In this document: in pieces, positions 46,711-52,986 of the stretch | Position numbering within the stretch: the stretch's first letter is position 1 | Layout of the letters: every line of letters begins with the position of its first letter | DNA from: Nitrospirota bacterium | Lineage (GTDB): Bacteria; Nitrospirota; Thermodesulfovibrionia; Thermodesulfovibrionales; Dissulfurispiraceae | DNA: 52,986 bases | Direction of reading: 5' to 3' | Assembly: GCA_023476565.1 (NCBI GenBank) | Contig: JAMCVZ010000047.1 | Coordinates: forward strand, 1-52,986 | Notes under the pieces: generated by a model | Told to the model about the DNA's origin: nothing | The model's input: the letters and a program-made list of their open reading frames with translations, nothing else | The model's database searches: none | Made by a program: the position numbers and the translations under genes

Positions 46711-47586
46711 TTACAGGATAAGGCTCCCGGTAATCTTATCCGACTTGATCCTGTTAAATTCAAAACCCAGTTCCCGCTCACTCAACCCCAGGGCAAGCCC
46801 GAGGACCTGTGTAAAGTAGAGGACGGGCACGTTGAACGCTTTCCCGAGCGTCCTTCCCGCAAGCTTCTGGTTATTCTCGTAAGCAATGCAACATGAAGGG
46901 CACGCCACCACCATTGCATCCACTCCCCTCTCTGACAGGCACTCAAGCTTCTCAGCAGCAAGCCTGAGGCCCGTATCCTCCGATATACCCATTATAGTAA
47001 GACCGCAGCAGAGGTTTTTATTTGTATAATCGATACTCTTTGCGCCGGCACTCGTGATAAGCCTGTCAAGAGTAACAGGGTTTGAGGGGTCATCGAAATA
47101 TTCGTGAGCCCGGGCCGGCCTCATATAATGACATCCGTAATGCACGCCGAACTCCAAAGAACCCAACGGATTAACGACCTCTTTTCGTAAGCGCTCCAGC
47201 CCGTAGTCCTCGATCAATATCCTTGCAAAATGTCTGACTCTGACCCTGCCGGTAAACTCTTTTACTCCAAGGGCTTTCAATTTCTTATTGACTTCACTGC
47301 GGAGGTCCCCGTCTTCGAGGTATTCCTTTGCCTCTGACAGGGTTGCAACGCACCCGGTACAGGCGCCTACGATATCCATATTTCTTTCTTCCGCTAGAGC
47401 AAGGTTGCGTGCGGCCATAATAAGAGCGACATGAAAGTCCATGGATTTCGCCGGATATCCGCAGCAGCCGAACTCAGGGACATCGACCAGCTCTATGCCG
47501 AGTTTCCTTGCGAGACTCCTCGTGGATATCTCGTATTTCAATGCCTTGACAGGCATTGCGCAGCCAGGGTAAAAGGCGTATCTCAA
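46711..47586 (-). CDS. hdrB: Heterodisulfide reductase subunit B-like protein
   Basis: 291 aa with two complete CCG domains. C9, C41-C42, C76, C79 and C152, C193-C194, C229, C232 match the ligand pattern of the two non-cubane [4Fe-4S] clusters that reduce disulfides in HdrB. The start is set at a TTG 8 nt after AAAGGAG, giving the canonical RYAFYPGC beginning; a GTG 15 codons upstream is the alternative. Last gene of the apr2-hdr cluster. No membrane segment. In this setting the electron acceptor or donor is probably a thiol/disulfide, which is not known. Confidence 0.88.
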   Translation of the reverse strand: MRYAFYPGCAMPVKALKYEISTRSLARKLGIELVDVPEFGCCGYPAKSMDFHVALIMAARNLALAEERNMDIVGACTGCVATLSEAKEYLEDGDLRSEVNKKLKALGVKEFTGRVRVRHFARILIEDYGLERLRKEVVNPLGSLEFGVHYGCHYMRPARAHEYFDDPSNPVTLDRLITSAGAKSIDYTNKNLCCGLTIMGISEDTGLRLAAEKLECLSERGVDAMVVACPSCCIAYENNQKLAGRTLGKAFNVPVLYFTQVLGLALGLSERELGFEFNRIKSDKITGSLIL

Positions 47587-47719
47587 AATATCTGCTCCTT
47601 TCTCTGTTATCTCAATAAGGGAATCAACCACAGCCGAAAATAGGCGCTTCTAAGCGAGGACACAGTAAATACTGATGGGAAACGGTATTTATTTTTCCCT
47701 GTGCTCCCCGTGGTTTTCA

Positions 47720-48148
47720 TCAATGCTTCCGGACCATCTCAAATATCCGCGCTGCAAGGGAGGGCTCTTCTTGTATCTGGGGAAGGCCGGCCCTCTCCCT
47801 TTTCCTGTTGTCTACAGGAATGAGCCGCCCGGTCCTGAGCAGGGCATCTCTCTGGTTTGCAACCAGGTCAGGGACAAAACCCGAAGCGACTGCCATAGCC
47901 CTCGCAAGCCAGAGGATTTCGGTCACCCTGATTCCTTGCGGACATCTCTCTGAGCAGGCAAAGCAGGTGGTGCATTTCCAGATCCCTTCGTCCTTAAGAA
48001 GCCTGGCCCCGGCCCCCATGCTGATCAGGTGGAGAAACCTGTGGGGCTGGAACGAGGGATCAAGCCGGTTGATATCGCACCCGGAAGAGCATTTCCCGCA
48101 TTGATAACAGTATCCGAGTCTCTCTTTATCGAAGAGCTTGCCGTGCAT
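47720..48148 (-). CDS. hdrC: Heterodisulfide reductase subunit C-like protein
   Basis: 142-aa soluble protein with two [4Fe-4S] motifs (C14, C17, C20, C24 and C59, C62, C65, C69), the electron wire between HdrA and HdrB. Unlike QmoC (2464-3621) it has no membrane domain. It starts 3 bp after the stop of the hdrA-like gene. The 133 bp to hdrB show no clear signal apart from the hdrB ribosome binding site. Confidence 0.9.
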   Translation of the reverse strand: MHGKLFDKERLGYCYQCGKCSSGCDINRLDPSFQPHRFLHLISMGAGARLLKDEGIWKCTTCFACSERCPQGIRVTEILWLARAMAVASGFVPDLVANQRDALLRTGRLIPVDNRKRERAGLPQIQEEPSLAARIFEMVRKH

Positions 48149-48151
48149 ACA

Positions 48152-50422
48152 CTAAAGCCTTAAAGGGTTCCTGCCCAGGAGTTTCAATTCACTGACGTAC
48201 TCCGTCACTGCCCGTGCAAACTTTTCCGGCTCATCCCTGCTGACAGCTACAAAGCGTACCCTTTCCGGCTCCAGATACATCTCCCTGAGCTTGTTTGAGA
48301 TATCGTCCAGTCTCGTTTTTGCCAATGCACTCCCCTGAATGTAATGGCACTGGCTGTCAGGGCATCCTGCAATGAGAATTCCGTCAATACCCGTTGAAAT
48401 GGCCTTCGCCACGATAGCTCCGTTTACTGCTCCCGCGCAGGGGACCATGATGCCCAGGAAATTCGGCGGGTACTGAATCCCCCGCAGGCCGGCATCATCC
48501 GCTGCCCTGTATGCATCGTTTCTGCACAGGAAGCCGAGGATTACCGGCTCATCCTCGTCGAGATACGACCTGTCGAAGACATCGATCATCTCCGAAAGCT
48601 GAACTATCGAAAGTTCCCCAAGCGATACAGCGGCAAGAGGGCAGCCCCCCATACATATCCCGCACCTGCGGCATTTGAGGATATCGGCCTTCGGGAAGCC
48701 TTTTTCATCGAGGGCATATGCCTTGAACGGGCATTCCTCGATGCAACGTTTGCAGACATCGCATTTCAATGTATTTACCGCCGAATGGTCGGGGACTACT
48801 TCTATGCCGCCTGTCAGGAACTGAAGGGCCTTGACCGCGGCTGCGCCCGCGCTCTCGATGGACCTCGAAACATCCATCGGCGCCTTGCAGCAGCCCGCGC
48901 TGAAAACAGCCGCCCTCCGGGTATCCTGAGGATAACATTGGAGATGGGATTCGACAAAGCTGTTTTTATTCAGGGCAATGCCGATTTTGCCCCCTAATTC
49001 TGCAATTCCGCTCGAAGGTCTCATGCCCGTTGCAAGGACCACAAGGTCAGCGGACAATTCAAGGCGTTCCCCTGCCACGGTATCGAAAACTGAAAAGTTT
49101 ATTTTGTTCGCATCACCCGGCTTCAATTCCGAGGGGATGCCCTTTACAAATATCACCCCGGCCTGCCGCGCCTTCCGATACAAGTCTTCATATTCTCCGG
49201 GGGTCCTGATGTCGTTATAAAATATGTACACCTCCGTGTCTTGTTCCATCTCTTTCAGCAAGATCGCCTGTTTTATGCTCACCATGCAGCAGACGCCGGA
49301 ACAATAGGAAAGATGCCGTTCATCACGGCTGCCCACACACTGAATAAAAGCTATCCGTTTCAGTCCTCTTAAAAATGCCCCATGCTTCCCGGCGATCTTT
49401 TCGAATTCCAGGCCCGTAACGACATTTTCGAGTCTTCCGTATCCAAGCTCCGCAAGAGGAGTCGGATCAAAGGGTTCCCATCCCGTTGCAAGAATAAGAG
49501 CTCCCGCCTTGCTATTGCTCACCTTCTCCTCTTCATCAAGGGCTATTGCATGCACAGGGCAGGCCCCGGCGCATTTATCACAGCCCTCAATACAGAGTTT
49601 CCTGTTTATAGCCGGGGCATTCGGGAAGGAGGGGCCTTCCGGATAAATAACGGCATTTTGAGGGCATACCTCAAGACATTTACCGCACAACACGCACCTC
49701 TCCGCATCAATATGCCGTGGACATGTCCTTACCATAATCTCGAAATTCCCCGGAGGGCCGCTTATGGAGTCTATTTCAGAAGAGGTCAGGATATGAATAG
49801 CGGGATTGTCTTTCAACTTCGAAAACATGAGCTCCAGGCCGCAGGACGGCGGACACATCCGCGGGAAATACCTGTGCAATCCTGCCACTCTCCCACCGAG
49901 AAACGGGCTCTTTTCGATAAGGAACACCTCATGACCGGTCTCTGCAATATCAATCGAAGCGTTTATTCCGGCTACCCCGCCCCCGAGCACCAGAGCACTC
50001 TTCAAGGCAGGGAGTTGTAAAGGCTGAAGCGGTTGAGAATGCCTTGCCATCTCGAGGGAGCCCCTGAGCATGGTCTTTGCCTTTTTTGTGGCATGCTCAG
50101 GGTTATTACGGTGGACCCGGCTGCACTGCTCCCTTAAATTCACCCGCCCGACAAGGTATTTGTTTATGCCGAGACCGGAAAATTCTTCTACCTTAAAGAA
50201 AGGAGAGCAGGCAGCTATCACTACTCTGTCGAGTCCGAGCTTTTCAACATCCCCCCTGATTTTGCGTATCCCGTCCGTTGAGCACAGAGAGGCATCTTTG
50301 TGGATAACGGTTACCCCCGGCCATCCTGATGCCTCTTTTGCCAATAAACCGGCATCAACGGCCTGCTCGACCTCGCCTCCGCAGGTGCAGAGGTAAATCC
50401 CTATTTTCAGGCTGTCATCCAT
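48152..50422 (-). CDS. HdrA-MvhD fusion flavoprotein (QmoA/QmoB-related)
   Basis: 756 aa from the ATG after ATCCAGGAA; a 24-codon extension upstream is unlikely. Order of parts: HdrA N-terminal domain (1-140; C12, C14, C47), FAD site GGGVAG (147-152), a Cys pair in RYFPRMCPPSCGLEL as in QmoA (about 190-194), an inserted ferredoxin (C243, C246, C249, C253 and C277, C281, C284, C288), a second ferredoxin (C554, C557, C560, C564 and C584, C587, C590, C594), and an MvhD-like domain (about 625-740, GCPDSQCHYIQG). It combines QmoA- and QmoB-like features in one chain. Expected to be the flavin hub of the apr2-hdr module. Whether it bifurcates electrons cannot be read from sequence. Confidence 0.88.
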   Translation of the reverse strand: MDDSLKIGIYLCTCGGEVEQAVDAGLLAKEASGWPGVTVIHKDASLCSTDGIRKIRGDVEKLGLDRVVIAACSPFFKVEEFSGLGINKYLVGRVNLREQCSRVHRNNPEHATKKAKTMLRGSLEMARHSQPLQPLQLPALKSALVLGGGVAGINASIDIAETGHEVFLIEKSPFLGGRVAGLHRYFPRMCPPSCGLELMFSKLKDNPAIHILTSSEIDSISGPPGNFEIMVRTCPRHIDAERCVLCGKCLEVCPQNAVIYPEGPSFPNAPAINRKLCIEGCDKCAGACPVHAIALDEEEKVSNSKAGALILATGWEPFDPTPLAELGYGRLENVVTGLEFEKIAGKHGAFLRGLKRIAFIQCVGSRDERHLSYCSGVCCMVSIKQAILLKEMEQDTEVYIFYNDIRTPGEYEDLYRKARQAGVIFVKGIPSELKPGDANKINFSVFDTVAGERLELSADLVVLATGMRPSSGIAELGGKIGIALNKNSFVESHLQCYPQDTRRAAVFSAGCCKAPMDVSRSIESAGAAAVKALQFLTGGIEVVPDHSAVNTLKCDVCKRCIEECPFKAYALDEKGFPKADILKCRRCGICMGGCPLAAVSLGELSIVQLSEMIDVFDRSYLDEDEPVILGFLCRNDAYRAADDAGLRGIQYPPNFLGIMVPCAGAVNGAIVAKAISTGIDGILIAGCPDSQCHYIQGSALAKTRLDDISNKLREMYLEPERVRFVAVSRDEPEKFARAVTEYVSELKLLGRNPLRL

Positions 50423-50438
50423 TTCCTGGATACGTTCC

Positions 50439-50765
50439 TTACCTTTTGTTCCTTGTGCGGTAGGTGAACCGTTCCACCTTGCCGTTAATGTCAACGCATG
50501 TCCAGGTTATGGAATCAGTGCCTATCATCGGGATGAGCTTTGCGCCGTGGTATCCGAGCTGATAGGGTATCCTCTGCTCAATGGCGCCCTTCGGACATAT
50601 CTTCGTGCAGGACATGCAGTCCCAGCAGTCTCTCAAAGACCTGCAGTACGCCTTTCCTGTTCCCGGGTCCAGTGTCATAAGGTCACCGATACATATCTGC
50701 TCGCACAGGGGTTCTTCTTTTCCCTTGCATCCATCACACTTGTCTTTTACCACATATGGCGGCAT
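50439..50765 (-). CDS. AprB-like ferredoxin subunit, short form
   Basis: 108 aa from the ATG after AAAGGAGGATACGCC. All eight cluster Cys are at the same numbers as in AprB1 (10, 13, 21, 25, 47, 50, 53, 57) and Trp48 is kept. A Pro normally after C25 is Ile (CIGDL). The C-terminal tail of about 37 residues that clamps AprA in the canonical enzyme is absent. It lies 40 bp after the AprA-like gene and 16 bp before the HdrA-MvhD gene. Confidence 0.88.
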   Translation of the reverse strand: MPPYVVKDKCDGCKGKEEPLCEQICIGDLMTLDPGTGKAYCRSLRDCWDCMSCTKICPKGAIEQRIPYQLGYHGAKLIPMIGTDSITWTCVDINGKVERFTYRTRNKR

Positions 50766-50805
50766 GGCGTATCCTCCTTTATAGTGAAAATTTTCTGTCT
50801 CATGC

Positions 50806-52638
50806 TCAGGACTTCTCTGCGGAAAGCGGCAGAGGGGACGGTGCCTTTGTCCTGTCTCCCGGCAGTACCTGCTCATAGGGCCTTTTAAGCATCCCGATCT
50901 CTCCTGTTTCAAGGTCTTTTCTCGAGTTAATGAAGCAGTCGAGGTCTTGGTCGACCCCGGGATAATCCGTCCTGGTCTGCCATCCGGGCCATCTGCTTTC
51001 CCTTCTCTCCCTCAGGTGCATTACCACCACCTCCGCCACATCGAGGCGGTCGATAACATCGTGAACCAGAACGAGCTCATGCAGATCGGTAGCGAAGAGC
51101 CTGCCGACCTGGTCCTTCAGCATCTTGATGTGTTTGAGCGCATAATTAAGCTGCTCTTCATTGCATTTGAAAAACTGGCCCACCCCTGCTGCATATTCGT
51201 CCATGAGCCTCTGGAATCTCTCTTCCATTTCCTCAGGGGTAACGCCGTCATACTGCCAGCGCTGGTCCTGTCCGGCAGGGATATTGTATTTGGCCTCCAT
51301 GCTCAAGCCTTTGAGAAGCGGCGAGAACACCCTCTCCTTCTCTGAAGCTATCTGATTCTCATCAAGATTGCCATGTTTAACGCTTGCGATATACTTCAGG
51401 GCGCCCCGTGCTGCGAGGACCCCCTCGGCAGCACACCCGCCGACAAATTTATTCGGCATCCCCCCTGCACATTCGCCTGCGGCAAAGAGACCGGGGAGGG
51501 TTGACATCCTGTCAATATCAACCCAATAACCGCTGCCCGTATGTCCACCTACTATGTAGGGGTCGCTGCCGTATATCTCCAACGGCTCTTTAGCGGGGTC
51601 CTGCCCCCTTGCCGCCAGGAAAAGCACATAGGTGGGCCGTTCATTGAGGTAATCTATCTTCAGGTCCTTGACCTGCTCGGGAGAAAGATGCCGGGTATCC
51701 ACAAAAGTCGGCCCGCGCCCCTCGCTCCATTCATTCATGGGCGCATTCGCCCTGATATAGCGCGGCGCCGTATCTCCTCCGAGGTGGGCATATCTTTCCT
51801 GGAGGATCATCTCTCCTTTGCTGTTTATCATTTTTGCCTTATACCCCACGGATATGGTGTCCACAGGCCCGGTAAAATCCTTTACTCTCGCTGCGCACCA
51901 CCTCTGCTCCATCAGGGTAAATTCCGCTCCGGCCCTTACACCCATGGCATATCCCGTACCTACATTGAACGGGCACATCCACATCTGATGATGCGAGGTG
52001 GCGCCGTCATTGGTTGCTGAACGGTAAAGACCCGCGGCCCCCCCTGTCGATACAACGGTCGCTTTGGCTTTTATTATGTAGAACTTGCCGTCCCTGATGC
52101 CGAAACCCACGGCGCCGGTTATCCTGTCGCCGGACCTGATAAGATTGGTTGCAGCCACCCTGTTCAATATCCGCGGATTAAGGCTCTTTGTCTTCTCTGC
52201 AATAATCGGCTTCAACTGTTCTCCGTGAATCGAAATGTCAAACCTCCCTCTTCTTTTGTACCTTTCCTTCTCGTCCTTCTTGAAAGGCACTCCCCACTTT
52301 TCCAGAGACTCCACGCATTCATTGAGGATCTTGGCGTTGCTCAGAGCAAGGTCTTCCCTCAGGGGACCGCCGCCCACCTGCGCGCGGCTCCATGCAACAA
52401 GGGTTTCAGGCGTCTCTCCTTCGCCTATGTACGTGTTAATGGCGTCCATGCCGGCAGCCAGTGCGCCGCTTCTATCTATATGCGCCTTCTCCATAATAGT
52501 CACATCGAGGTCAGGATTTTTTTCCTTGGCCTCGATTGCGACAAAGCACCCCGAGTTGCCTCCGCCGATAATGAGGAGATCGGTCTCTATCCTTACCTCT
52601 TCAACTTCCTTGACAGTTTTCGGGAGATTCTTCTTCAT
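50806..52638 (-). CDS. AprA-like flavoprotein, divergent second copy
   Basis: 610 aa, fumarate reductase/APS reductase alpha-subunit superfamily. FAD motif LLIIGGGNSG at 21-30, DAINTYIGEG at 65-74, Arg251 in AARVKDFTGPV and His366 in VGGHTGSGYW align with Arg285 and His418 of AprA1. Differences: the region after His366 is about 15 residues shorter (no GPDDLGAP segment), and the stretch matching residues 135-165 of AprA1 is replaced by RRGRFDISIHGEQ. So it is homologous to AprA, but its substrate is uncertain. The start follows AAGGAGGTAAGGACG. First gene of the cluster; order A-B, opposite to the canonical aprB-aprA. Confidence 0.85.
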   Translation of the reverse strand: MKKNLPKTVKEVEEVRIETDLLIIGGGNSGCFVAIEAKEKNPDLDVTIMEKAHIDRSGALAAGMDAINTYIGEGETPETLVAWSRAQVGGGPLREDLALSNAKILNECVESLEKWGVPFKKDEKERYKRRGRFDISIHGEQLKPIIAEKTKSLNPRILNRVAATNLIRSGDRITGAVGFGIRDGKFYIIKAKATVVSTGGAAGLYRSATNDGATSHHQMWMCPFNVGTGYAMGVRAGAEFTLMEQRWCAARVKDFTGPVDTISVGYKAKMINSKGEMILQERYAHLGGDTAPRYIRANAPMNEWSEGRGPTFVDTRHLSPEQVKDLKIDYLNERPTYVLFLAARGQDPAKEPLEIYGSDPYIVGGHTGSGYWVDIDRMSTLPGLFAAGECAGGMPNKFVGGCAAEGVLAARGALKYIASVKHGNLDENQIASEKERVFSPLLKGLSMEAKYNIPAGQDQRWQYDGVTPEEMEERFQRLMDEYAAGVGQFFKCNEEQLNYALKHIKMLKDQVGRLFATDLHELVLVHDVIDRLDVAEVVVMHLRERRESRWPGWQTRTDYPGVDQDLDCFINSRKDLETGEIGMLKRPYEQVLPGDRTKAPSPLPLSAEKS

Positions 52639-52809: not shown

Positions 52810-52870
52810 TCAAAAAGCAAGAGAAAAAATTCAAAAACGTGGGAATTCCTTAATTTTGTTTTTTTATTTT
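52810..52870. repeat. AT-rich repeat, type B, copy 4
   Basis: AAAAATTCAAAAACGTGG, centre GGGAATTCCTTAATTTTG, then T-rich. The right end contains the stop codon of the lpd gene. Confidence 0.6.
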
Positions 52871-52986
52871 CTGGGTGAGTGTATCGCCTCTCCATGCACG
52901 TCTTCAGCCGCTTCCATAATCCCCTCGGCAAGGGTAGGATGGGCATGGATCATGTCGGCAACCTCTTTTGCCGTCAACCCGGCCTT
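52864..52986 (-). CDS. lpdA: Dihydrolipoamide dehydrogenase, C-terminal end (partial)
   Basis: 40 codons of the 3' end; the gene runs off the window. [21 protein letters not shown] is the end of the dimerisation domain with the catalytic His-Pro of the family, followed by [15 protein letters not shown]. The stop is provided by repeat B copy 4. It points in the same direction as the apr2-hdr cluster, 225 bp upstream of it; co-transcription cannot be decided. Confidence 0.85.

Follow-up and report, generated by a model that had tools for sequence, protein, structure and literature searches.

A widespread adenosine-5'-phosphosulfate-reductase-like flavoprotein with an altered nucleotide pocket, linked to heterodisulfide reductase modules and probably acting on another substrate

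A 52,986-nucleotide contig of a Nitrospirota bacterium (JAMCVZ010000047.1, assembly GCA_023476565.1; the whole stretch is hereafter the window) carries a five-gene locus encoding an adenosine 5'-phosphosulfate (APS) reductase-like flavoprotein (AprA2), its ferredoxin subunit (AprB2), an HdrA fused to MvhD, HdrC and HdrB. AprA2 and AprB2 form a new and widespread type of AprAB-like reductase that is tied to Hdr modules and probably acts on a substrate other than APS. Such a substrate is favoured because the residues that contact adenosine monophosphate (AMP) in APS reductase are replaced, Sat never adjoins the locus, transporters nearly always lie nearby and AprA2 occurs in genomes lacking both Sat and canonical AprA. 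An earlier note on this DNA described the five genes as lying in one direction with short gaps, in a genome that also holds canonical aprBA-qmoABC; all five were found on the minus strand, and the canonical set, with Sat, lies on the same contig. Of the functions that the note offered, action on another substrate is the one favoured by the evidence, whereas its suggestions of sulfate reduction or of sulfite oxidation to APS are disfavoured by the same observations.

AprA2 exceeds the cut-off of the model NF005331 (597 vs 557 bits), which appears to cover the AprA2 clade as well as the assimilatory one, and falls below that of TIGR02061 for dissimilatory AprA (393 vs 641.75 bits), on which the genome's canonical AprA scores 940 bits. 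Its best relative of solved structure is the alpha subunit of MtPAPSR, the 3'-phosphoadenosine 5'-phosphosulfate (PAPS) reductase of Methanothermococcus thermolithotrophicus (PDB 8a8o, 500 bits, 45% identity), followed by the AprA of A. fulgidus (344 bits, 38% identity); the predicted fold is clear from the 45% identity to a solved structure. AprB2 scores 96 bits against the aprB model TIGR02060, below its cut-off, and its cluster pattern, with CWDC, was found in all 63 AprA2-family members. The HdrA-MvhD protein matches NF040770 (618 bits; HdrA2-type) and FlpD (PF02662, 128 bits), possesses ferredoxin-type cysteine motifs and aligns with HdrA and MvhD homologues of solved structure. HdrC and HdrB score below the cut-offs of their models, and both C...CC...CxxC motifs of HdrB are intact. 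Thus the flavin adenine dinucleotide (FAD) and ferredoxin domains of HdrA, the HdrC clusters, the two CCG motifs of HdrB and the FlpD domain of an HdrABC-MvhD module are all present, which supports the earlier note in placing a soluble HdrA(MvhD)-HdrC-HdrB set alongside an AprAB-like flavoprotein.

The active site was compared across 63 AprA2 sequences using A. fulgidus AprA numbering. In that enzyme N74, W234, R265 and H398 lie at the sulfate group, R265, V273, G274, Y95 and H446 at the phosphate and ribose, and R317 and L278 at the adenine, and the channel is strictly conserved (Meyer & Kuever, PMC2211403). The residues holding the sulfo group are kept in AprA2 (N74, W234 and R265 in 63/63, H398 in 62/63; N68, W220, R251 and H366 in the window). 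Contacts to AMP, in contrast, are replaced: G274D, Y95W and H446N in every sequence and L278V in 62 of the 63. The channel residues F277 and F261 have likewise given way to Ser (62/63) and Trp (63/63), the window protein bearing W83, D260, V264, N396, W247 and S263 at the six replaced positions. R317 and F448 are retained in all 63 sequences and V273 in 46; K447 is kept as well. G274 and L278 are common to the canonical and assimilatory clades, with one exception among 18 at L278 (MtPAPSR, which has Q); Y95 is variable even among canonical proteins.

The MtPAPSR loop K120-R121-S122 has been tied to PAPS and Gln145 to APS (Jespersen & Wagner, PMC10322725). AprA2 has R132-F133-D134 in place of this loop, the Asp134 occurring in 63/63 sequences. 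Four codes are seen at positions 143-145: canonical enzymes have K/Q-W-Q, assimilatory enzymes accompanied by Sat have R-W-N, those accompanied by APS kinase have K-R-S, and AprA2, which has no Sat beside it, has x-W/F-D. The control was an AprA encoded on an Ilyobacter plasmid, in one operon with cysC, cysD and the gene of a GTP-binding protein; it is identical to MtPAPSR at 20/20 pocket positions, indicating that the pocket code tracks the substrate. Judged from these residues, the AprA2 pocket would no longer bind AMP.

Maximum-likelihood analysis (44 AprA2 and 18 assimilatory rows; one wrong-frame row, L019_ap, was left out) placed AprA2 in a clade of its own with support of 100/100, outside and sister to the assimilatory clade containing MtPAPSR (98/92) and apart from the canonical clade (100/100), although the tool warned of long branches between the three groups. 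A recent duplication of canonical aprA was ruled out by the 33% identity between the two and their separate clades. AprA2 was found at 63-94% identity in 6 of 60 relatives searched, and the AprB2 and Hdr genes follow wherever the contig allows. The Nitrospirota relatives examined with AprA2 at 63% identity or more keep the five-gene order as far as their contigs reach; in two further genomes of the same class the order is identical. A scan of named genomes extended the family to at least 67 loci in Nitrospirota (Thermodesulfovibrionia), Desulfobacterota and Bacillota (Desulfosporosinus, Acididesulfobacillus). The deltaproteobacterial carriers comprise Desulfovibrio piger, Solidesulfovibrio, Nitratidesulfovibrio, Fundidesulfovibrio, Bilophila, Mailhella, Desulfarculus and Desulfobulbaceae; AprA2 is present in 29 of the 119 species sampled from the family to which the Bilophila genome belongs. 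Local coincidence of the five genes was rejected given their repeated order in relatives and recurrence in three phyla. No description of this operon was found in the literature searched, which did not extend to subscription papers. In one metagenome-assembled genome (MAG) aprA2 is spread over two reading frames (L151 10001-11715, G054:C12), by sequencing error or pseudogenisation, and a MAG labelled Burkholderiales (L147), probably misbinned or mislabelled, has the whole operon with an AprA2 86% identical to Nitrospirota copies.

Gene neighbourhoods, counted only at loci with enough contig, set AprA2 apart from its sister clade. AprB2 comes next after AprA2 in 60 of 61 loci, and an anion transporter lies near in 53 of 55 (DASS 34, TctABC 15, TauE/SafE 3, DASS with Tct 1; families were checked by Pfam on examples). 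A Crp/Fnr-type regulator is near in 39/43 and HdrA downstream in 26/49. Sat adjoins none of 67 AprA2 loci vs all 18 loci of the sister clade in the same phylum, which is about 50% identical. As 14/18 of the latter loci also have an Rrf2-like regulator and 7/18 a gene resembling sulfite reductase, the sister clade is assimilatory. Sat-AprAB assimilatory operons are common in other classes of Nitrospirota (L072-L089), often with Rrf2 and sometimes with a sulfite/nitrite-reductase-like gene. In the window's own genome a separate contig (C46) bears a DASS permease that shares 87% identity with one of the partner permeases, together with a periplasmic binding protein and Crp, and a gene reading like gcvH at the contig end after Crp; Crp and a transporter are therefore not missing from this genome. 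The paired SNT motifs of carboxylate carriers are missing from the DASS proteins of AprA2 loci. Small sulfonates, sulfocarboxylates and oxyanions are substrates on which the DASS, TTT and TauE families overlap, and a sulfocarboxylate or similar anion is therefore our first guess at the substrate.

On cyanobacterial plasmids (L175 4986-11038, L176 5046-11450, L173 4955-7719), a distant AprA/FrdA-like flavoprotein (30% identity) lies beside a small ferredoxin gene, and the cluster also encodes HEAT and Mrp proteins. Flanking it are either genes for an ABC transporter, TauE/SafE and a putative sulfate exporter, or a gene for a sulfonate-binding protein. It is possibly an aerobic counterpart for sulfonate use, and its neighbourhoods lend slight backing to an imported sulfo-compound as the AprA2 substrate.

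Among carrier genomes, DsrA was matched in 46 of 48 and scored over cut-off in 42, and canonical AprA was over cut-off in 34 of 48. Sat is present in 38 of 50 and missing in 12, and in the Sat-less genomes no CysD exceeded its cut-off. Sat and canonical AprA are both absent from ten carriers (G307, G321, G323, G329, G330, G333, G339, G343, G344, G345), and most of these have DsrA. In the single contig of 2,172,708 bp of genome G390, AprA2, TctABC and Crp were found, and neither Sat nor canonical AprA. G390 appears to correspond to Taurinivorans muris LT0009, whose complete genome has been described as encoding AprAB without Sat or QmoAB and read as an incomplete pathway (PMC10507020). In Desulfovibrio piger, two dsrA copies were observed about 5 kb apart (G331:C34 2526-9234), as also in a second D. 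piger genome (G353).

The electron module beside AprAB2 varies. HdrA-MvhD with HdrC and HdrB occurs in the window, in Nitrospirota and in some Deltaproteobacteria; in five loci (L101, L103, L120, L128, L130) HdrA is accompanied by AsrA/AsrB-like genes of the Flx type, linked to reduced nicotinamide adenine dinucleotide (NADH). At L105 (14540-16294), AprAB2-HdrA is followed by a NarI-like cytochrome b domain fused to QmoC/HdrC-type Fe-S domains and then by HdrB, making this operon a membrane-bound version of the same system. The window copy has no membrane subunit, but the quinone-independence proposed in the earlier note is not general. Most Desulfovibrionaceae have no electron module adjoining AprAB2, while L170 and L171 have HdrA after it. 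The HdrA beside AprAB2 at L104 (8309-10666), and similar deltaproteobacterial proteins, are divergent and lack the N-terminal Cys motif (CTC) of the window HdrA. Because HdrB keeps both of its cluster motifs, it could plausibly work with a thiol/disulfide partner, for instance DsrC; the title of a work cited in PMC10553843 points to such a partner for FlxABCD-HdrABC.

The gene calls are collected in Table 1. Gaps between the five genes, in order from aprA2 to hdrB, are about 40, 16, 3 and 133 bp. The listed TTG start of HdrA-MvhD at 50494 and GTG start of HdrB at 47631 are probably too early. A nuo operon lies downstream of HdrB.

Table 1. Features of the window discussed in the text, with coordinates on the 52,986-nucleotide stretch.
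Feature	Coordinates	Strand	Remarks
aprA2	52638-50806	minus	610 residues; FAD subunit, APS-reductase-like, altered nucleotide pocket
aprB2	50765-50439	minus	108 residues; ferredoxin subunit, two [4Fe-4S] motifs and electron-transfer Trp48
hdrA with C-terminal mvhD (FlpD) fusion	50422-48152	minus	ATG start
hdrC	48148-47720	minus	two [4Fe-4S] motifs; TIGR03290 87 bits
hdrB	47586-46711	minus	TTG start; two CCG domains; TIGR03288 240 bits, PF02754
dihydrolipoyl dehydrogenase, 3' end	52864-52986	minus	read by eye from translation; at contig end, upstream of aprA2
canonical sat, aprBA and qmoABC	11062-2464	minus	comparison set, same contig

The explanation that we prefer, and to which we give nearly an even chance, is that AprA2B2 is a neofunctionalised branch of the assimilatory line: a reductase that would cleave a sulfo-compound taken up from outside, yielding sulfite for Dsr, and would draw its electrons from Hdr, Flx or quinone modules that can replace one another. 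The order of the genes, the clade, the residue changes, the partners and the genome distribution are read directly from the sequences, and from them we infer the substrate class, the direction of reaction and the electron route. The partner transporter would import a small sulfo-bearing anion, whose sulfo group would be held over the flavin by Asn68, Trp220, Arg251 and His366. N5 of the reduced FAD would then attack the sulfur, the remainder of the molecule leaving, and the resulting N5-sulfite adduct would release sulfite to be reduced by Dsr. By analogy with the feeding of AprBA by Qmo, electrons may pass from HdrA through the two [4Fe-4S] clusters and Trp48 of AprB2 to FAD; in the window's genome, HdrA would be served by HdrBC on the thiol/disulfide side (possibly DsrC) and by MvhD on the donor side. 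More tentatively, and with somewhat less confidence than an even chance would express, the system may constitute a new enzyme class, in which an enzyme derived from AprAB would use flavin N5 for the reductive desulfonation of organosulfonates or S-sulfonates brought into the cell, supplying sulfite to Dsr without lyases or glycyl radicals through interchangeable Hdr, Flx or QmoC-like modules.

Several observations weigh against the preferred explanation. Most of the Sat-less carrier genomes are MAGs, and the co-occurrence of DsrA with AprA2 is confounded by lineage. Proteomes of T. muris LT0009 from growth on taurine, sulfolactate or thiosulfate did not show its AprAB (PMC10507020). R265, R317 and H398 may suit carboxylates too. 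The assimilatory Ilyobacter operon has a DASS, albeit only about 22% identical to those of AprA2 loci, from which it appears that a DASS can serve sulfate. Finally, Bilophila wadsworthia QI0013, which lacks Sat and possesses two AprAB-like pairs, grew with 10 mM APS (PMC11610557); should both pairs belong to the AprA2 clade and the APS have been uncontaminated, APS would be a substrate and the pocket argument would be wrong or incomplete.

This growth would fit AprA2 having remained an APS reductase, whether as a second enzyme that is independent of quinone, drawing on Hdr, MvhD or NADH electrons, or as one using external APS as proposed for Bilophila. The closest characterised relatives reduce APS or PAPS, the catalytic residues are kept, and most carriers have Sat and could obtain sulfate through DASS. 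We nevertheless regard this reading as unlikely: G274D sets a carboxylate at the AMP phosphate/ribose site from which Y95 and H446 have also gone, with L278, and AprA2 is never beside Sat and is found without Sat, CysD or canonical AprA. DASS, TTT and TauE proteins are not known to import nucleotides. Another reading is a return to fumarate-reductase-like chemistry, with AprA2 a reductase or dehydrogenase of an imported sulfur-free carboxylate served by DASS and tricarboxylate transporters. AprA is a member of the fumarate reductase superfamily (PMC10504309), carboxylates are transported by the DASS and TctABC families, and K447 is kept together with R265, R317 and H398. The retention of every sulfo-holding residue, the lack of SNT motifs in the DASS proteins, the near confinement of AprA2 to Dsr-bearing genomes and the presence of TauE/SafE, a sulfite/sulfonate family, make this rather improbable.

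The reaction might instead run oxidatively, joining sulfite to an acceptor to form a sulfo-compound and handing the electrons to Hdr, which could serve disproportionation or the detoxification of sulfite. AprBA is reversible (PMC2211403) and TauE, by its family name, can export sulfite or sulfonates; however, carriers mostly belong to lineages of sulfate or sulfite reducers, the NADH-type Flx modules suggest a reductive role, the natural acceptor AMP does not fit the AprA2 pocket, and MtPAPSR gave no reverse reaction (PMC10322725). We thus give this direction very little credence. Least credible of all is a PAPS reductase like MtPAPSR, despite the latter being the best solved match: the Asp that replaces the serine of the KRS motif faces the place of the 3'-phosphate, no cysC was recognised in the neighbour lists read, and the PAPS code kept in Ilyobacter is absent from AprA2; this identity was rejected on the loop residues and the Ilyobacter control. 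Thiosulfate was also considered as substrate and set aside; the organism fitting G390 grows on it, yet its AprAB was unseen in the proteome.

Genome annotation names AprA2-type genes APS reductase, and where gut sulfidogens lack Sat, their AprAB homologues have been interpreted as belonging to an incomplete sulfate pathway or as an imported-APS route (PMC10507020, PMC11610557). Were the pocket argument true, a widespread enzyme would be misnamed and surveys relying on aprA-like annotation would overcount sulfate reducers. Desulfovibrio piger, Bilophila, Mailhella and groundwater Nitrospirota would then have an unrecognised source of sulfite, hence of H2S, and sulfur respiration an unrecognised way of being fed.

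Among known systems, MtPAPSR (PMC10322725) resembles AprA2B2 in its short AprA- and AprB-like subunits, catalytic residues and sister-clade position; it differs in its KRS specificity loop and in an operon with ATPS, APSK and PAPP, having neither an Hdr module nor the transporter-Crp signature. AprBA-QmoABC shares the AprB-HdrA-type electron entry and the sulfo-binding residues, QmoA and QmoB being HdrA-like and QmoB carrying an MvhD domain. The AprA2 set, however, is 33-38% identical, fails TIGR02061, has a changed AMP pocket and no adjoining Sat, and possesses one HdrA-MvhD with HdrCB where the AprBA system has QmoABC. In the AprBA-QmoAB-HdrBC of Gram-positive sulfate reducers (PMC10504309), HdrA-type proteins and soluble HdrBC likewise feed AprAB without QmoC, but there separate QmoA and QmoB serve canonical AprBA, whereas the window has one fused HdrA and an AprA of a different clade. 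The FlxABCD-HdrABC NADH dehydrogenase/heterodisulfide reductase shares the HdrA, HdrB, HdrC and MvhD/FlxD parts, and Flx-like genes occur in some AprA2 operons; the known Flx-Hdr systems have no AprAB, and the window copy no adjoining FlxABC.

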